A DNA stretch of 64,000 bases, taken from Magnetococcales bacterium. GTDB taxonomy: Bacteria > Pseudomonadota > Magnetococcia > Magnetococcales > Magnetaquicoccaceae. A program made the translations under genes and the position numbers. The stretch lies in assembly GCA_015234115.1 (NCBI GenBank), contig JADFWP010000002.1:62001-126000 (forward strand), read 5' to 3'. A model generated the notes under the pieces. That model searched no databases. It saw only the letters and a program-made list of their open reading frames with translations, and was not told the DNA's origin. Shown one piece after another: positions 41,825 through 56,000 of the stretch. Numbering within the stretch: the first letter of the stretch is position 1; every line of letters begins with the position of its first letter.

Positions 41825-42588
41825 GATGTGATCCTTGGTTGGGTTGATGCAATCGGTGCATCAAGCACCGCTGCCAAAGCGAATACCGTTGATTCAAAGT
41901 GCATTGTACCGAACTCCAGTACAACCAAAATGCAATCCCCTTATATGTTATTAAAATTAAAGCAAATTTAGTGCCATTGCAAAATTGATTGGTTGACTCT
42001 GCCAGTCAATCACTCATCAAAACTTAATGATCTGATTGATATATAATAAAATTAAATATTCAGTAAAAAAATAAATACCGGCACAAGAAAATCAATTCTT
42101 CTGCAGAATCGTGACACAACCCAATAATTTAAACAAAAAACGCTTTTCTCTGACCAGCTTGAACGGGTTTTACATCACTGAGTTTGGAATATGTGATAGT
42201 ATGAAGCAATATGTTTCAAATTTGACTTGAAACAGGAATACATTTGCAAATATTTGCAATCTTGCCGAGTTCAACATAACGCGATGACGTGGAACGCTAA
42301 AGGCTGAGAGAGTGGAAGGTCAGACGGTAATCCAAACCAATACGACCTGACGATGATTTTTGTTAAAAACACCAGACAATCAATTATAAATATATTGGTA
42401 TTTATAAATAAAAATTTAGAAATGCGCAGGAAGATAACCTGTTTGTATGGGGTGTCGGATTCAACAAGATGGCATTCTGTGCCCTGGGAAGTCCGATGTC
42501 CTCCCTTGATTTCAGGGGGATTGGGGTCTATTCTGGGTTGCGAAAATGGCCATCCCATCCAGAAACCAACCCCATCCACCTTGCACGC

Positions 42589-43587
42589 ATGCTCCACTTT
42601 GAATGGCCCTGGATGTTTCTGCTCCTGCCCTTGCCGTGGCTGGTGCGACGCTTTGTCAAACCGGTGCATCAGCCGCCGGAAGCGGTTCTGGAAATTGCCT
42701 GCATCGCAGACTTCGAGGATTGTTTCATCTCTGCCCCCCGGCGCGCTTCCCGTTCCGGTCGCGGCGCGTGGATCATGGCCATGCTGGCCTGGGTGCTGCT
42801 GATCGCGGCGGCGGCCCGACCGGCCTGGCTCGGAGAACCCATCGATCTTCCGGCCAGTGGTCGGGATCTGATGCTGGCCGTGGATCTCTCCGGCAGCATG
42901 CAAACCAAGGATTTCCGACTCAACGATCAACCCATCGACCGGCTCACCGTGGCCAAACAGGTGGCAGCCGATTTCATCCGCCGTCGGGTTGGGGATCGGG
43001 TGGGGTTGATTCTGTTTGGCCTCAACGCCTATCTGCAAGCGCCTCTGACCCTGGATCGCGAAACCACGGCCCATCTGCTGGAAGAGGCGGTCATCGGACT
43101 GGCTGGCAAAGAGACCGCCATCGGCGAGGCCATTGGACTGGCGGTGAAGAAATTCCGGACCGGCCCCAAAAACAGCCGCGCCCTGATCCTGCTCACCGAT
43201 GGCGCCAACACCGCAGGCGTGGTGGCGCCCCTCAAGGCGGCCGAAATGGCCGCCGAAGAGGGGATCCGGATCTATGCAATCGGCGTTGGCGCGGACGAAA
43301 TGACCCTGCGCACCCTCTTTGGCACCCAGAAGGTCAATCCCTCCACCGACCTCGATGAAACCACCCTCACCCGGATGGCCGAACTGACCCATGGCCGCTA
43401 CTTCCGGGCCAAAGAGACCGCCCGGCTGGAGGAGATCTATCGCCTGATCGATGAACTCGAACCGGTGGTCCGTGAACAACAGACCCATCGTCCCATTCGC
43501 GCGCTCTATTTCTGGCTGCTGGCCCCGGCCCTGCTGTTGGCCGTCGTGCTGCTCGCAACCCACAACCGCAAGAGGCGGGGCCGATGA
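42589..43587 (+). CDS. BatA-like VWA domain membrane protein
   Basis: LMLAVDLSGSMQTKDF MIDAS, RALILLTDGANTAG; flanking TMs. Confidence 0.88.
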   Translation: MLHFEWPWMFLLLPLPWLVRRFVKPVHQPPEAVLEIACIADFEDCFISAPRRASRSGRGAWIMAMLAWVLLIAAAARPAWLGEPIDLPASGRDLMLAVDLSGSMQTKDFRLNDQPIDRLTVAKQVAADFIRRRVGDRVGLILFGLNAYLQAPLTLDRETTAHLLEEAVIGLAGKETAIGEAIGLAVKKFRTGPKNSRALILLTDGANTAGVVAPLKAAEMAAEEGIRIYAIGVGADEMTLRTLFGTQKVNPSTDLDETTLTRMAELTHGRYFRAKETARLEEIYRLIDELEPVVREQQTHRPIRALYFWLLAPALLLAVVLLATHNRKRRGR

Positions 43588-45407
43588 TCGAAAATTTTCA
43601 TTGGCTGCGTCCCTGGTGGCTGCTGGCCATACCGCTGCTGCTTCCCCTCTGGGTGCTGCTCCGGCGTCACACTGGCGCGGGAAATGACTGGCATCGGGTC
43701 TGCGATCCCCACCTGCTCCCTGCCCTGTTGCGTCGGGTCGATGCGGTCCGCAGCAACCGACGCAGCCCACTGCTGATCACGTTCACCGTTGCGCTCACCC
43801 TTCTGGCCCTGGCCGGTCCGGTCTGGCAGAAACTCCCCCAACCGGTCTATCAGAAACAGACCCCCCTGGTGATGATTCTCGATCTCTCGCTTTCCATGGA
43901 GGCCACGGACCTCAAGCCCAGCCGACTGGAACGGGCCAGATTGAAAATCGCCGATCTGCTGCAAAAACGGCGCGAAGGGACCACGGCATTGATCGTTTTT
44001 TCTGGCGAGGCCTTTGCCGTCACGCCATTGACTTCGGATACCGAGACCATCCGCGCCCAGCTTCAGGCCCTTTCGACCGAACTCATGCCCGCTCCCGGCA
44101 GCCATCCGGAGCTGGGCATCGCCCTGGCCCAACGGATGCTCGCCCAGGCCGGATATGCCCGAGGGATGGCCCTGTTGATCACCGATGGTCAGCTTTCGGC
44201 CAGCACACGGGAGCAGACACGTCAGTTTTACCAGCAAGGTCATCGGCTTGCGGTGCTGGCCGTGGGAACCGCCGAGGGGGGACCGATTCCACGCCCATCC
44301 GGGGGATTCGTCCAGGATGCCCAGGGAGCGATCGTCATTCCGCGCCTCGACGAAGCGCCGTTGCGCATCCTGGCCCAGGAGGGAGGAGGACGCTACGCCC
44401 GTCTGACCACCGATGAAAGCGATCTGGAACACCTGCTGGCCGATGAGGCTGCCGGTCCGCTCGACGCCCCCCCCCAACAAACCACCCTGACCGCCGATCT
44501 CTGGCACGAGGAGGGACCATGGCTGCTGCTGCTGGTGATTCCGCTGGCCGCCCTGGGATTCCGACGCGGGGTGCTGGCCTGGTGGCTGGTGTTGGCATGG
44601 ACTCAATCGGCCTCGGCCCTGGAATGGGGTTCTCCCTGGCAACGCCCGGATCAGCAAGGGGCCGAGCAATGGGCGGCGGCCGATCCCAATGCCGCCGCGC
44701 AACTTTTTACCGATCCGGCCTGGAAAGCGGCGGCGCTCTATCGTGCCGGACGCTTCGAAGAGTCGCTGCACGCCCTGGAACCCCTGGATCATGCTGATGC
44801 CTGGTACAACCGGGGCAATGCCCTGGCGCAGCTCAACCGGTTGGAGGAAGCCGTGCGAGCCTATGACGAAGCCCTGAAACGCGATCCCCAACACGCCGAC
44901 GCCCGCCACAATCGGGAACTGGTCCAAAAACAGCACCAGCCGCCGGAACCACCCCCTGAAAAGCAGTCCAAGCCTGCCGATTCTTCCGATCCTGCGGATC
45001 AGAAGGAGGACCGGAAGGATGGAGAAAAGAGCGCGTCAACCGCTCCCAAATCGGATCAGGATAAAAAAGAGGAACAGGAAGGGAAAAAGGGCAAAGAGGA
45101 AAAAACGCCTTCCGAAGGCGCCAAAAGCGAGCGGAATCGGGAAAAAGGCGAGCCGGAACCGGCTGCCAAAGATACGAAAAATCAATTATCGAAAGAGAGT
45201 CAGGCGGCTCCAGACGCTTCCCCTCCTGCCGGGACAAAATCCTCCCCACCGGTCGCTGCCGAAGCGGAAGAGCGGGATGAAGCCAAACAGGCAGAGGAAC
45301 AATGGCTGCGGCGCATTCCAGACGATCCGGGTGGGTTGTTGCGACGAAAATTTCTCTATCAATACCAGAGGCTTGGAAAATCACGCCCGGAGTCTGAACC
45401 ATGGTGA
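43584..45407 (+). CDS. BatB-BatC-like fusion: VWA domain + TPR + charged tail
   Basis: LVMILDLSLSMEATDLKPSR MIDAS, MALLITDGQLS, TPR AWYNRGNALAQLNRLEEAVRAYDEALKRDPQHADARHN; ATGA overlap with previous gene. Confidence 0.88.
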   Translation: MIENFHWLRPWWLLAIPLLLPLWVLLRRHTGAGNDWHRVCDPHLLPALLRRVDAVRSNRRSPLLITFTVALTLLALAGPVWQKLPQPVYQKQTPLVMILDLSLSMEATDLKPSRLERARLKIADLLQKRREGTTALIVFSGEAFAVTPLTSDTETIRAQLQALSTELMPAPGSHPELGIALAQRMLAQAGYARGMALLITDGQLSASTREQTRQFYQQGHRLAVLAVGTAEGGPIPRPSGGFVQDAQGAIVIPRLDEAPLRILAQEGGGRYARLTTDESDLEHLLADEAAGPLDAPPQQTTLTADLWHEEGPWLLLLVIPLAALGFRRGVLAWWLVLAWTQSASALEWGSPWQRPDQQGAEQWAAADPNAAAQLFTDPAWKAAALYRAGRFEESLHALEPLDHADAWYNRGNALAQLNRLEEAVRAYDEALKRDPQHADARHNRELVQKQHQPPEPPPEKQSKPADSSDPADQKEDRKDGEKSASTAPKSDQDKKEEQEGKKGKEEKTPSEGAKSERNREKGEPEPAAKDTKNQLSKESQAAPDASPPAGTKSSPPVAAEAEERDEAKQAEEQWLRRIPDDPGGLLRRKFLYQYQRLGKSRPESEPW

Positions 45408-47245
45408 CCCCCTGCAAACCCCTGACCGTGTTCTTTTGTCTGCTGGGTCTCTGGCTGGGAAGCGGCGTACTGGAAGCCGCCGAAATCCAGGTGCGCGCCT
45501 CCCGTGATCCGGTGGTGCAGAGCGAATCCTTCGCGCTGATCTTTTCCACTGCCGAAAGTCCCGATGCCGAACCGGATTTCAGCCCGCTTGCCAAAGAGTT
45601 CGAAATTCTCGACCAGGGCAAGAGCAGCAATTTCCAGTTTCTCAATGGTCACAAAAGCCACTCCATCACCTGGAGGCTGGAGTTGATGCCCAAGCGCAGC
45701 GGCGAAATCGTGATTCCGGTCATCTCCTTTGGCAAGGATCACAGCACGCCTTTGACCGTGAACATTCTTCCCGCCGGAGGGCAAACCACCCGCAAGAACC
45801 GCTCCGAGCAAACCGAGTCCGGACTGTTGGTCGAGGCGGAGGTGAGCAATCCCGCGCCCCATCTGCTGGAGCAGCTCCTGCTGACCGTGCGTTTCCTGAA
45901 TGCCGTGCCCATTGCCGGGGCCAGCATGCCGGATCCCACCCTGGAATCCGGGGATGCGATCATCGAAAAGCTCGGTGCCGACCAGGCCTACGAGCGCGAA
46001 CGCCAGGGAGAACGCTATCTGGTTTCGGAACGGCGTTACGCCCTGTTTCCGCAACGCAGCGGGCCATTGGTGATCGCGGCCATCCCGGTGACCGTGCAAC
46101 TGCCCGGTCAGGGAGGAGGAAGCAATCTGTTGAAGGAACTCCTCAACGATCCGTTCTTCAAGAATCTGCCCCTGGGTCCGGGCCGACCCGGCCGCACGAT
46201 CCGACTCGCCACCGAACCGATCCGGCTGGAGACCAAACCCCAGCCCGCGAACTGGCAGGGTGCCTGGCTTCCGGCCCATCGGCTGATTCTGGAAGAGAAA
46301 TGGAATCCCGATCCCCCCCGTTTCCAGGTGGGCGAGCCGATCACCCGCACCCTGACGCTGATCGCCGATGGCCTGACCTCGGCGCATCTGGCGGATATTC
46401 CTCTGAAAAACCCGGATGGCATCAAGCTCTATCCCGACCGGCCATTGCTGGAAAATCAAAAAGAGCACACCGGAATCATCGGCAAGCGGCAGGAGAAGAT
46501 CGCCCTGATTCCCACCGCACCGGGTGAAGTGACCCTGCCGGCAATCGAAATTCCCTGGTGGAACATCGATCGGCAACAGCCGGACACCGCGCGCCTGCCG
46601 GAACGACGGGTGACGGTGCTGCCCGCTCCGGCCTCGGCCACCGGCCCATCATCCACGCCCGCCCCCGCCCCGGCGGTCAACTCCGCCGTCACACCCCCGG
46701 TGCCTGCCGCCGATGCCCCACTGCCCGCCGGAGCGGAGCCGACCCGACAACCCGCGCCGCCCGTTGCCGCCACCACACCCGCACCGCCCCCCCCGGATGC
46801 CGCAACCGCCGGAATCTGGCCATGGGTGGCCCTGGCATTGGGTACGGGCTGGTTGGGAACCGGCCTGCTCTGGTGGTATCGCATGTATCGCCAGCGTACA
46901 ATAAAGGTAACGAGTACACCCGTCGGCAAGCCGGATGAAACGCTGCCGGTATCGCGTGAAACGGAAGAGGCGTTGCAGCGCGCCTGCCGGAACCATGATC
47001 CGGTCGCGGCCCGGACCGCCCTGATGGCTCTGCCGGATTGGATGCGTTCCACTGCGCTGGTTGCAGAAATGGCACGATTGAACGCCGCGCTTTACGGTCG
47101 CACGCCCAGCTCCTGGCATGGGGAGAGTCTCTGGGCGGCCTATCGTTCGGTGCGGGATGCTCACCCACGCGCCTCCAGGATGCGTTTCCCGACCGTGCCG
47201 ACCTCGCCGACCTCGCCGACCCTGCCCCCATTGTATCCCTCATGA
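45401..47245 (+). CDS. BatD-like protein
   Basis: Signal peptide; EIQVRASRDPVVQSESFALIF; VEAEVSNPAPHLLEQLLLTVRFL; C-terminal TM; operon context. Confidence 0.85.
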   Translation: MVTPCKPLTVFFCLLGLWLGSGVLEAAEIQVRASRDPVVQSESFALIFSTAESPDAEPDFSPLAKEFEILDQGKSSNFQFLNGHKSHSITWRLELMPKRSGEIVIPVISFGKDHSTPLTVNILPAGGQTTRKNRSEQTESGLLVEAEVSNPAPHLLEQLLLTVRFLNAVPIAGASMPDPTLESGDAIIEKLGADQAYERERQGERYLVSERRYALFPQRSGPLVIAAIPVTVQLPGQGGGSNLLKELLNDPFFKNLPLGPGRPGRTIRLATEPIRLETKPQPANWQGAWLPAHRLILEEKWNPDPPRFQVGEPITRTLTLIADGLTSAHLADIPLKNPDGIKLYPDRPLLENQKEHTGIIGKRQEKIALIPTAPGEVTLPAIEIPWWNIDRQQPDTARLPERRVTVLPAPASATGPSSTPAPAPAVNSAVTPPVPAADAPLPAGAEPTRQPAPPVAATTPAPPPPDAATAGIWPWVALALGTGWLGTGLLWWYRMYRQRTIKVTSTPVGKPDETLPVSRETEEALQRACRNHDPVAARTALMALPDWMRSTALVAEMARLNAALYGRTPSSWHGESLWAAYRSVRDAHPRASRMRFPTVPTSPTSPTLPPLYPS

Positions 47246-47751
47246 TGATGCAGAGAACGCCCCATTTTCCCCCTGAAAATGGGATTCTGACTTACAATAA
47301 TTCAATTATCGTAAGTCAGAATCGCCCCTGCTGGCAATTGCGCGCCCCAAACACCCCCTCTACCCCATCTACCCCCTCCCTCCCCGCTCCCAACGCCACC
47401 CCTGCGCTCCATGAACCGGAACCGGAAAACCCTCTCCGTTGCACCGCGTGCAAACAAATAATCACCTATCCTTCCCAACGCATCGCCGTTCAGTCGAGCC
47501 ATACCCATACTTTCTTCAATCCGCATGGCGTCCTGTTCGAAATCGGCTGCTTTCGTCATGCACCCGGCTGCTTCACCGCCGGTCTGCCCTCGCTGGAGTT
47601 CACCTGGTTTTCAGGATATGCCTGGAGCCTGGCCGGATGTCTCCAATGCCAAAGGCACTTGGGATGGCAGTTTCAAAAGTTGTCCGCCGACCCCTTTTTT
47701 GCCCTGATTCTCAATCGGCTTGGTGTTGCATTCACTCCGAAAAGATCGTAA
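47242..47751 (+). CDS. CULT-domain protein (cereblon-like thalidomide-binding fold)
   Basis: RCTACKQIITYPSQRIAVQSSHTHTFFNPHGVLFEIGCFRHAPGC...EFTWFSGYAWSLAGCLQCQRHLGWQF...FFALILNRL: CxxC..CxxC zinc site and W-x5-W-x13-W-x-F aromatic cage. ATG 47242 overlaps batD stop (alternative TTG 47338). Confidence 0.85.
   Translation: MMMQRTPHFPPENGILTYNNSIIVSQNRPCWQLRAPNTPSTPSTPSLPAPNATPALHEPEPENPLRCTACKQIITYPSQRIAVQSSHTHTFFNPHGVLFEIGCFRHAPGCFTAGLPSLEFTWFSGYAWSLAGCLQCQRHLGWQFQKLSADPFFALILNRLGVAFTPKRS
47261..47283. repeat. Perfect hairpin CCCATTTTC-CCCCT-GAAAATGGG
   Basis: Direct reading. Confidence 0.9.
47283..47323. repeat. 41-bp near-perfect palindrome GATTCTGACTTACAATAATTCAATTATCGTAAGTCAGAATC
   Basis: Arms match except one base pair and the central base. 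Confidence 0.95.
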
Positions 47752-47804: not shown

Positions 47805-48674
47805 ATGTACAAACCATGGCCACTGTCCGGATCCCCATCCCAATGGCTGTTGCTGTCCCTGTTGCTGCTCTCTCCTCCCCTGGCCGCCGAATACGAAAGC
47901 ATGCAAAAACTGGATGAAACCCTCCGGGCAGCCAATCAGGGCGTGATCGAGGCCCAGAACAATGTCGCCATGATCTTTCGTGATGGCCTGGGTGTGCCTC
48001 GGGACTACAAGGCCGCGCTCAAATGGTATCGCATGGCGGCAGACAAGGGACACGCCGAAGCCCAGTACCAGCTTGGCAGAATGCACCACGATGGCAAGGG
48101 AACCCCCAAGGATGACCAGGAAGCGGTCAAGTGGTTCCGGCTGGCCGCCGAACAGGGATCGCCCGAGGCCCAGTTTGCCCTTGGCGAGATTCATCGCAAT
48201 GGCCAAGGCATCCTCGACGATGCCAAAGAGGGCGTGAAATGGCTGCGCCTGGCCGCCGAACAGGGATTGGCCGAAGCGCAATACAATCTGGGTCTCGCGC
48301 TGCGCGACGGCCAGGGAACCGAACGCGACGAACAACAGGCCGCAAGCTGGATCCGCAAGGCCGCCGAACAGGAGTTCCCCAAGGCCCAGACCCTGCTGGC
48401 CAACATGCTCGCCGCCGGTCAGGGGGTGGAACAGGACCTGATCCAGGCCGCCATGTGGCTGCAACTCGCCGTGTCGCAGGGAGACCCCTCCGCCCTGAAA
48501 AAACAGGCCCAGATGCTCAAGGATCTCACCAGGGAGCAACTCTCCAAAGCCCGTGACCTGGCCGATCACTGGATCCCGCCCAGCCTGAAGAAAATCACGG
48601 ATACCCCTGCCAAGACCGCAGGCAACCAGCCCTCCGATCCGGTCGGCAGCCCTGTCCCCAAAAAGGTCGAATGA
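47805..48674 (+). CDS. Secreted Sel1-like repeat protein
   Basis: Signal peptide then repeats such as AEAQYQLGRMHHDGKGTPKDDQEAVKWFRLAAEQGSPEAQFALGEIHRNGQG. Confidence 0.9.
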   Translation: MYKPWPLSGSPSQWLLLSLLLLSPPLAAEYESMQKLDETLRAANQGVIEAQNNVAMIFRDGLGVPRDYKAALKWYRMAADKGHAEAQYQLGRMHHDGKGTPKDDQEAVKWFRLAAEQGSPEAQFALGEIHRNGQGILDDAKEGVKWLRLAAEQGLAEAQYNLGLALRDGQGTERDEQQAASWIRKAAEQEFPKAQTLLANMLAAGQGVEQDLIQAAMWLQLAVSQGDPSALKKQAQMLKDLTREQLSKARDLADHWIPPSLKKITDTPAKTAGNQPSDPVGSPVPKKVE

Positions 48675-53024: not shown

Positions 53025-56000
53025 TTGCCGCTTTCGATGGCCCTCTCCAAACCTGCACGGAGTTTCTCTTTGAATTCAAGCGCCATTCCCGGCCTGGGCA
53101 TCCTGACCCGATGCATGATCCGGGACCGACACGCCCTGCGCAAACGGCTGCTGGAAGCGGGCCGTCAGGCGCGGGAGGCGACGCTGGATCCGGCCCGGCT
53201 GGAGGCGCTGCGCGCGGACCTGGAACGCTCCAGCGCCGAACGGGAACGCCGTCGCGCGGCCATTCCTGCGTTGCGTTTTCCGGAAGAGCTGCCGATCACC
53301 GCCCGTCGCGCCGACATCGCCGAGGCGATCCGCAAACATCCGGTCACCATCGTGCGCGGGGCCACAGGCTCGGGCAAGACCACCCAACTGCCCAAAATCT
53401 GTCTGGAACTGGGACTGGGCAGCGCCGGAATGGTGGGCGTGACCCAGCCCCGCCGCATCGCGGCCCGCTCGATCGCCGACTTTCTCGGCCAGGATCTGGG
53501 CGGAAATGCCGACCGTCTGGTGGGACACAAGGTGCGTTTCAACGATCATACCGCCCCATCCACGCTGGTCAAGATCATGACCGACGGGATCCTGCTCGCC
53601 GAAATCCAAAGCGACCGGCTGCTGCAACGCTACGAAATGATCCTGGTGGACGAGGCCCACGAACGGAGCCTCAACATCGATTTCCTGCTGGGACTGCTCA
53701 AGCAGATCCTGCCCAAACGCCCGGAATTCAAACTGGTCATCAGCTCGGCCACCCTCGATGCGGACAAGTTCTCGCGCCACTTCGACCACGCCCCGGTGAT
53801 CGATGTCTCGGGCCGCACCTATCCGGTCGAAACCCGCTACCGTCCCCGCGTGATCGAGGCCAGCGACGACGAGGAGCTGGAAGAGGCCGAAGAGCAGAGC
53901 ATCGAGAGCGCGGTGATCGGGGCGGTCAACGAACTTTCGCTGCCAGGCATGCTGGGGGATATTCTGGTCTTTCTCCCCGGCGAGCAACAGATCCGGGAGA
54001 TCGGCGAAACCTTGAGCCGCAGCGCCGGACCCGGCGTGGAAATTCTGCCGCTTTTTGCCCGGCTGTCCGGAGCCGACCAGCAGCGGATTTTCCAGTCCAG
54101 TTCCAAGCGTCGGATCATCCTGGCCACCAATGTCGCGGAGACCTCGATCACCGTGCCTGGCGTGCGCTATGTGATCGACTCGGGATTGGTGCGCATCAGC
54201 CGCATCAGCGAACGGATGCGCATTCAACGTCTGCCCATCGAGAAAATCTCCCGTTCTTCCGCCGATCAGCGCCAGGGACGGTGCGGACGCATGGCCGAAG
54301 GGATCTGCATCCGGCTCTATTCCGAGGAGGATTATCTCGCCCGCCCCCAGTTCACCGATCCGGAGATTCTGCGCACTCCGCTGGATGCGGTGATTTTGCA
54401 AATGAAGGCCATGCGCATCGGCGAAATCGACGCCTTTCCTTTTGTCGATCCTCCGGGCAGTCGCGCCATTGGCCAGGGCATGCGTTTTCTGGAGGAACTC
54501 GGGGCCATCGACGGGGATGGACGGCTCACCGCCATTGGCAAACAGGTGGCCAAACTGCCGCTTCCTCCGGGATTGGGACGGATCCTGCTGGAAGGCGGAC
54601 AACGGGGACGACTGAAAGAGATTCTGATCCTGGTCGCCGCTCTCTGCCTGCCCGATCCACGGGAGGAACCCCAGGAACGAAGGGATACCGCCCGGCAGGC
54701 CCATGCCCGCTTCAAGGATACCCAGTCGGATTTCATCGGCATTCTCAATCTCTGGGCCTTCATCCAGCAAGGCCGGCTCGATCATCCGGGCCACAACAGC
54801 TTTCGACGTTATCTCAAAGAAAACTTCCTCTCCCGGATGCGGGTGCGGGAGTGGCTGGAGATTCACACCCAGCTCGAAGAGATGTCTCTGGAGTTCGGGC
54901 TGCGCCCCAACGAAACCCCGGCCACCTATGCCGAGATCCATCAGGCCCTGCTGCCGGGCCTGCTCGGCAATGCCGGCTGCAAGAACGATCAGAAAGAGTT
55001 TTCCGGCGCCCGCGAAACCCGGTTCTGGATCCATCCCGGCTCGGCCTTGCACCGCAAGCCTCCGGCCTGGATCGTGGCCGGTGAACTGGTCGAGACCACC
55101 CGGCTCTATGCCCGCATCTGTGCCCGGATCGAACCCGAATGGCTGGAGGTGGCCGCCGGTCCCTTGTGTCGCCGCGCCTATTCGCAGGCCCATTGGGAAA
55201 AACAGTCCGGCCAGGTGATGGCCCTGGAGCGGGTCACCCTGTTCGGTCTGATCCTGATCACCAACCGCAAGGTCCATTTCGGACCGATCAACCCGGTGGA
55301 GTCCCGGCAGATTTTCATCCAGTCGGCGTTGGTGGAGGGACAGTTCCACTCCAGCGCCCCCTTTTTCGTCCACAATCAGGGGCTGATCGCCGAAGTCCGG
55401 GAGTTGGAACACAAATCCCGCCGCCGCGATCTGCTGACCTCGGATCCGGATCGCTACGCCTTTTACGAAGCCCAAATCCCGGATTCGATCCATACCGCGC
55501 GGCGTTTTCACGAATGGTATGCCGAGGCCCGCAAACGCAATCCGCGCCTGCTTTACTTCGAGCGGGACGATGTGCTGCGCCGCGACGACGGTTCGATCAG
55601 CGGCGAGCGTTTCCCCGGCCACCTGATCATCGATGGTCAGGAGTTCGCCCTGGAGTATACGTTCGATCCGGGCGGCAACAATGATGGTGTGAATGCCCGC
55701 ATTCCCTTGTCGCTGTTGAACGGCCTCTCTCCCCTGCCCTTCGAGTGGCTGGTGCCCGGCCTGTTGCAGGACAAGATCCAGGCGCTGTTGAAATCCCTGC
55801 CCAAGTCGCTGCGGCGTCCATTGGTTCCGCTTCCCCAGGCAGCCGAGTGGTGCATGAGCCAGTTGACCCAGGCCAGCGGCTCATTGAAAATTACGTTAAT
55901 TGAATTATTGAAACGCAGAATCGGTGAAAACATCCCCCTGGATGCCCTGAACGGCGAAACCCTGCCCGATCATCTGCGCATGAACTTCCTGATCGTCGAT

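Follow-up and report, generated by a model that had tools for sequence, protein, structure and literature searches.

Human cereblon reads C-terminal cyclic imides, and its thalidomide-binding domain combines an aromatic cage (W380, W386, W400 and F402) with an NPHG hairpin motif and a zinc site. The closest described bacterial protein is MsCI4 (MGR_0879), cereblon isoform 4 of Magnetospirillum gryphiswaldense, a single CULT domain with two zinc-binding CxxC pairs and a three-tryptophan cage that binds uridine and thalidomide with low micromolar affinity, its biological context not being settled (PMC4449219). MsCI4 serves widely in studies of cereblon ligands, and these papers establish neither the natural ligand nor the role of bacterial CULT proteins (PMC4449219, PMC8900816). 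The second system that concerns us is the Bat (Bacteroides aerotolerance) operon of the moxR-DUF58-batA-batB-batD type, the function of which is also unsettled (PMC3557215). We found no literature on bacterial cereblon operons. Here we describe a CULT gene joined to the end of a set of bat genes in a Magnetococcales genome; the window that we analysed is a 64,000-nucleotide stretch of that genome (G000), and its relevant features are collected in the table.

Table. Features of the bat-CULT locus, in coordinates of the window.
Feature	Position	Strand	Basis or remark
batA, VWA membrane protein	42589..43587	+	Pfam VWA 8.8e-18; BatA N-terminal model sub-threshold
batB/C fusion (VWA + TPR)	43584..45407	+	Pfam VWA_2 8.2e-15, TPR_1 1.3e-11
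batD	45401..47245	+	Pfam BatD PF13584 8.3e-20, DUF7939 7.1e-12
ATGA overlap, CULT start and batD stop	47242..47245	+	in 5/5 CULT-bearing members of the genus
CULT-domain (cereblon-like) protein gene	47242..47751	+	169 aa; phmmer, AlphaFold2, Foldseek
CULT N-terminal extension, residues 1-64	47242..47433	+	Pro/Thr-rich; AlphaFold2 model of low confidence
41-bp palindrome	47283..47323		20-nt arms, 1-nt centre; in frame in the N-terminal extension; genus-specific low-copy family
CULT domain proper, residues about 67-162	47440..47727	+	zinc CxxC pairs, cage, NPHG hairpin 93-96
Sel1-repeat protein gene	47805..48674	+	Pfam Sel1 3.2e-54; 53 nt 3' of CULT

The product of the unbroken CULT reading frame is a CULT protein. 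In a phmmer search of PDB sequences its residues 63-161 match MsCI4 (4v32) with an E-value of 1.6e-22, and animal cereblons match the domain at about 1e-10 to 1e-13. An AlphaFold2 model built from the sequences gathered has pLDDT values mostly above 90 in the CULT domain and a disordered N-terminus, where almost every residue from 1 to 34 scores below 50; when it was submitted to Foldseek, the top PDB matches were all MsCI4, with probability 1.00, 38-42% identity and an rmsd of mostly 1.0-1.8 Å over about 100 residues. The TM-scores normalised to the target (0.85-0.92) correspond to the beta-tent fold. The phmmer match and the Foldseek superposition together place the resemblance far beyond chance. 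A sequence-only reading of the locus had named the product a CULT protein very close to MsCI4 on the strength of two CxxC motifs, a W-x5-W-x13-W-x-F spacing and an NPHG motif, and the identity, the motifs and the closeness are all borne out by these searches and by the 169-residue translation. The zinc pairs are C67/C70 and C133/C136, the cage is W122-x5-W128-x13-W142-x-F144, with the spacing of the human protein and an aromatic base, and the hairpin motif is N93-P-H-G96. In an alignment of 46 relatives the three cage tryptophans, N93, P94, G96, C103, C133 and C136 are invariant, and C67/C70 almost so. The sole Pfam match of the protein is to Yippee-Mis18, at 16.5 bits and thus under the 26.6-bit cut-off of that family. 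There is no Pfam match to a LON domain in the 169 residues, which sets the protein apart from full-length cereblon (CRBN), and no signal peptide-like or hydrophobic stretch was found at its N-terminus.

Like the human thalidomide-binding domain, the protein thus has equivalents of the four cage residues, the hairpin motif and the zinc site; unlike human cereblon, it lacks the DDB1-binding region as well as the LON domain, and as a bacterial protein it implies no ubiquitin system. With MsCI4 it shares about 40% identity and the single-domain architecture, and it differs in its long disordered N-terminal extension and in its overlap with a bat gene. Judged by the identity of its residues, the cage very probably binds a uracil- or cyclic-imide-type ligand as MsCI4 does. 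The base of the cage is Phe144, as in human cereblon and in the laboratory-made Y101F variant of MsCI4, as opposed to Tyr101 in wild-type MsCI4 (PMC8900816). The human-type residue, matching that variant, occurs naturally here.

The domain also contains a further cysteine pair, C103/C110 (window 47548-47571), in the pattern GCFxxAPGC. Among the 46 bacterial CULT sequences C110 is at least 90% conserved and C103 invariant, whereas MsCI4 has a leucine in place of C110. The model puts the two residues at opposite ends of an inter-strand turn, and a disulfide or a metal site is possible.

The genes upstream of CULT are batA, a batB/C fusion and batD, in the order of the described operon type and overlapping by a few bases at the batA/batBC and batBC/batD junctions; the start of batA is taken to be at MLHFEWPW, the longest ORF opening at 42469. 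The junction between batD and CULT is of the same kind, the batD stop TGA (47243-47245) overlapping the CULT ATG at 47242. Both the upstream bat genes and this overlap had been described correctly from the sequence. The CULT gene had also been called the last of the operon, a description that is not borne out: the Sel1 gene follows on the same strand after only 53 nt, a terminator scan found no terminator in that gap, and Sel1 is possibly co-transcribed with CULT. In the operon type moxR is adjacent to the bat genes, whereas here it lies on contig C88 (locus L150) and the bat genes on C84. A DUF58-like ORF, named by reading its sequence, stands beside moxR, and the Bat locus is therefore split in this draft assembly, which is 77% complete. 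The CULT tail is an addition to the bat genes seen only in the source genus.

Within that genus we compared 11 genomes, five of which carry CULT (G000, G034, G041, G077 and G101). In all five, CULT lies directly behind batD and its ATG overlaps the batD stop, with BatD sequences only 41-57% identical to that of the window and a linker that varies in length from 99 to 183 nt. The translational coupling that the overlap had been taken to imply is made likely by its retention in five of five genomes. The gene after CULT is Sel1, followed by dnaE, in G000, G034 and G077 and another gene in G041 and G101; batD-CULT is therefore the unit that persisted, and its persistence despite BatD divergence and downstream rearrangement could reflect functional constraint. 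Four other members (G073, G045, G153 and G137) have bat genes and no CULT behind batD; in G073 and G045 only a short non-CULT stretch separates batD from Sel1-dnaE. This distribution fits one gain of the pair, or one ancestral placement followed by losses, and a tree in which the position of the genus copies is poorly resolved does not contradict their single origin.

Beyond the genus the association disappears. No bat gene stands beside CULT at any of 15 other loci of the order, at 26 loci of other phyla found by scanning a genome collection, or at 30 loci in a sample of the phylum to which Desulfobulbales and Desulfoprunum belong, one of which repeats L049, so that the loci of other phyla total about 55. 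Bat HMMs trained on the genus found BatD in G037 and G002, our positive controls, away from CULT in both, and detected no bat gene near CULT at non-genus loci; since these HMMs missed the more divergent BatD of G061 and the Desulfobulbales-sample flanks extend only 1.5 kb, bat genes that have diverged strongly or lie farther away could have been overlooked. Nor do the two genes co-occur across 48 genomes of the order, BatD being found in 16 of 20 genomes with CULT versus 20 of 28 without (Fisher p=0.74). The Bat-CULT link is thus real but confined to the genus. The neighbourhood conservation expected by the sequence-only reading is present inside the genus and absent outside it, and the Bat link is a weak lead to the role of bacterial CULT proteins because the adjacency is one genus-level event and the two genes are unassociated in the order. 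On the same locus counts, and within the reach of these HMMs and flanks, we rejected Bat-CULT as a general bacterial module.

We propose, with a probability of roughly 60%, that the protein is a soluble reader of the MsCI4 type whose gene was placed once behind batD and is translated by reinitiation, and that it is not a dedicated Bat part. It would be a zinc-pinned single-domain protein, presumably cytoplasmic, with an aromatic cage that accepts a uracil- or cyclic-imide-like ligand. The gene would have been placed ancestrally, immediately behind batD, and ribosomes that terminate at the batD stop would reinitiate on CULT. The gene would thus ride on the expression of the bat operon, presumably as part of the same transcript. 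The protein itself would be a general ligand or damage reader, carried on many unrelated operons, and would form here a captured operon tail with no dedicated function in the membrane and periplasmic Bat machinery. The locus is, in short, a genetically linked CULT gene in one genus, probably co-translated with the Bat proteins; a Bat-specific role is possible, the argument for it being genus-level gene order only.

The neighbourhoods of CULT elsewhere suggest a second reading, in which the protein acts in sulfur/tetrapyrrole or redox metabolism (siroheme or haem precursors, rhodanese, CysZ) and its position behind the bat genes is incidental. At 12 of the 26 genome-scan loci (L048, L049, L054-L057, L061-L065 and L071) CULT directly follows a CobA-HemD fusion, a uroporphyrinogen-III methyltransferase/synthase (Pfam HEM4 2.4e-67, TP_methylase 7e-56), and the independent sample of the Desulfobulbales phylum adds four such loci (L132, L133, L139 and L142). 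At six loci of the order, from three families (L034, L036, L037, L041, L042 and L043), CULT directly precedes a rhodanese gene, with an ATGA overlap at three of the six; some of them have a CysZ-type gene (Pfam EI24) on the far side of the rhodanese gene, and in Desulfotignum such a gene immediately precedes CULT. Single cases of TtcA-like, thioredoxin, CoA-binding, rubrerythrin and DJ-1 neighbours were also seen. However, this very heterogeneity counts against the metabolic reading, many loci have no gene of the kind, and the counts of CobA-HemD loci are not independent, since these loci cluster phylogenetically. We also know of no biochemical link between CULT and sulfur or tetrapyrrole metabolism, and we consider this reading rather unlikely as it stands. 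It is compatible with the general reader proposed above, which it would narrow. The varied neighbours show CULT behaving like a gene that has joined different operons again and again. Bat is not its general partner, and the CobA-HemD and rhodanese/CysZ contexts, which recur more widely, are better leads. As a separate observation, the CobA-HemD to CULT order is seen in many Desulfobulbales-type genomes.

It is also conceivable, but unlikely, that CULT serves as a Bat/VWA accessory in this genus, reading cyclic-imide-bearing or damaged protein ends and linking them to inner-membrane BatA, BatB and BatD. Such a role would agree with a gene order and an ATGA overlap kept in five of five genomes while the downstream gene changes, and with the earlier proposal that Bat proteins handle oxidatively damaged periplasmic proteins; deletion of the bat genes in Leptospira biflexa, however, produced no oxidative-stress phenotype (PMC3557215). 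The accessory role is further weakened by the four genus members whose bat genes are not followed by CULT, by the lack of CULT-BatD co-occurrence across the order and by the absence of a signal peptide-like stretch from the CULT protein.

The palindrome in the 5' region raises the question of whether CULT is expressed alone under its control, the batD overlap being mere compaction. The element lies at the same place in the CULT genes of G000, G034 and G077, just inside the reading frame; its hairpin is strong, with a minimum free energy of -19.4 kcal/mol, and a promoter-like match (47273-47301) lies on it. Hairpin and match could uncouple CULT from batD. Against this stand the weakness of the match, which agrees with the consensus at only 9 of 12 positions, and the CULT genes of G041 and G101, which have the ATGA start and no palindrome. 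In G077, moreover, every in-frame start lies upstream of the palindrome, which is therefore coding; the linker that follows it also keeps its reading (LRAPN, FRAPK and LRTPN). A start at TTG 47338, or an independent gene located after the palindrome, is disfavoured by the lack of such a start in G077 and by the batD-overlapping ATG common to all five genes. We regard independent expression as improbable. That a cereblon-like protein reading C-terminal cyclic imides was drawn into the Bat machinery of the genus, to form a ubiquitin-free bacterial pathway that would recognise chemically damaged proteins and pass them to a VWA membrane complex, is more doubtful still, and we think it very improbable.

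The palindrome belongs to a family with the core ACGATAATTNAATTAACGT, found at few places per genome and almost only in this genus. Its members include copies on contigs C56 of G034, C169 of G077, C111 and C70 of G101, C33 and C82 of G041, C8 of G045 and C218 of G137. Outside CULT they lie between convergent genes (G101 and G041), 5' of a moxR-like gene (G137) or inside an ORF (G041 and G101); we rejected the element as a regulon marker since these copies stand beside unrelated genes. Pairing is strong, 80% of cells being paired compared with 24-44% in slid versions. Covariation above chance was not seen in the palindrome, 72 of 500 shuffles reaching the score, and we rejected covariation as proof of an RNA hairpin; the palindrome itself is real. 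In-frame palindromic elements of Rickettsia resemble this family. A palindrome-like core, TCAATAATTCAATTAACGT, also occurs at 55893-55911 of the window, inside a DEAH helicase ORF, and is found in several members of the genus.
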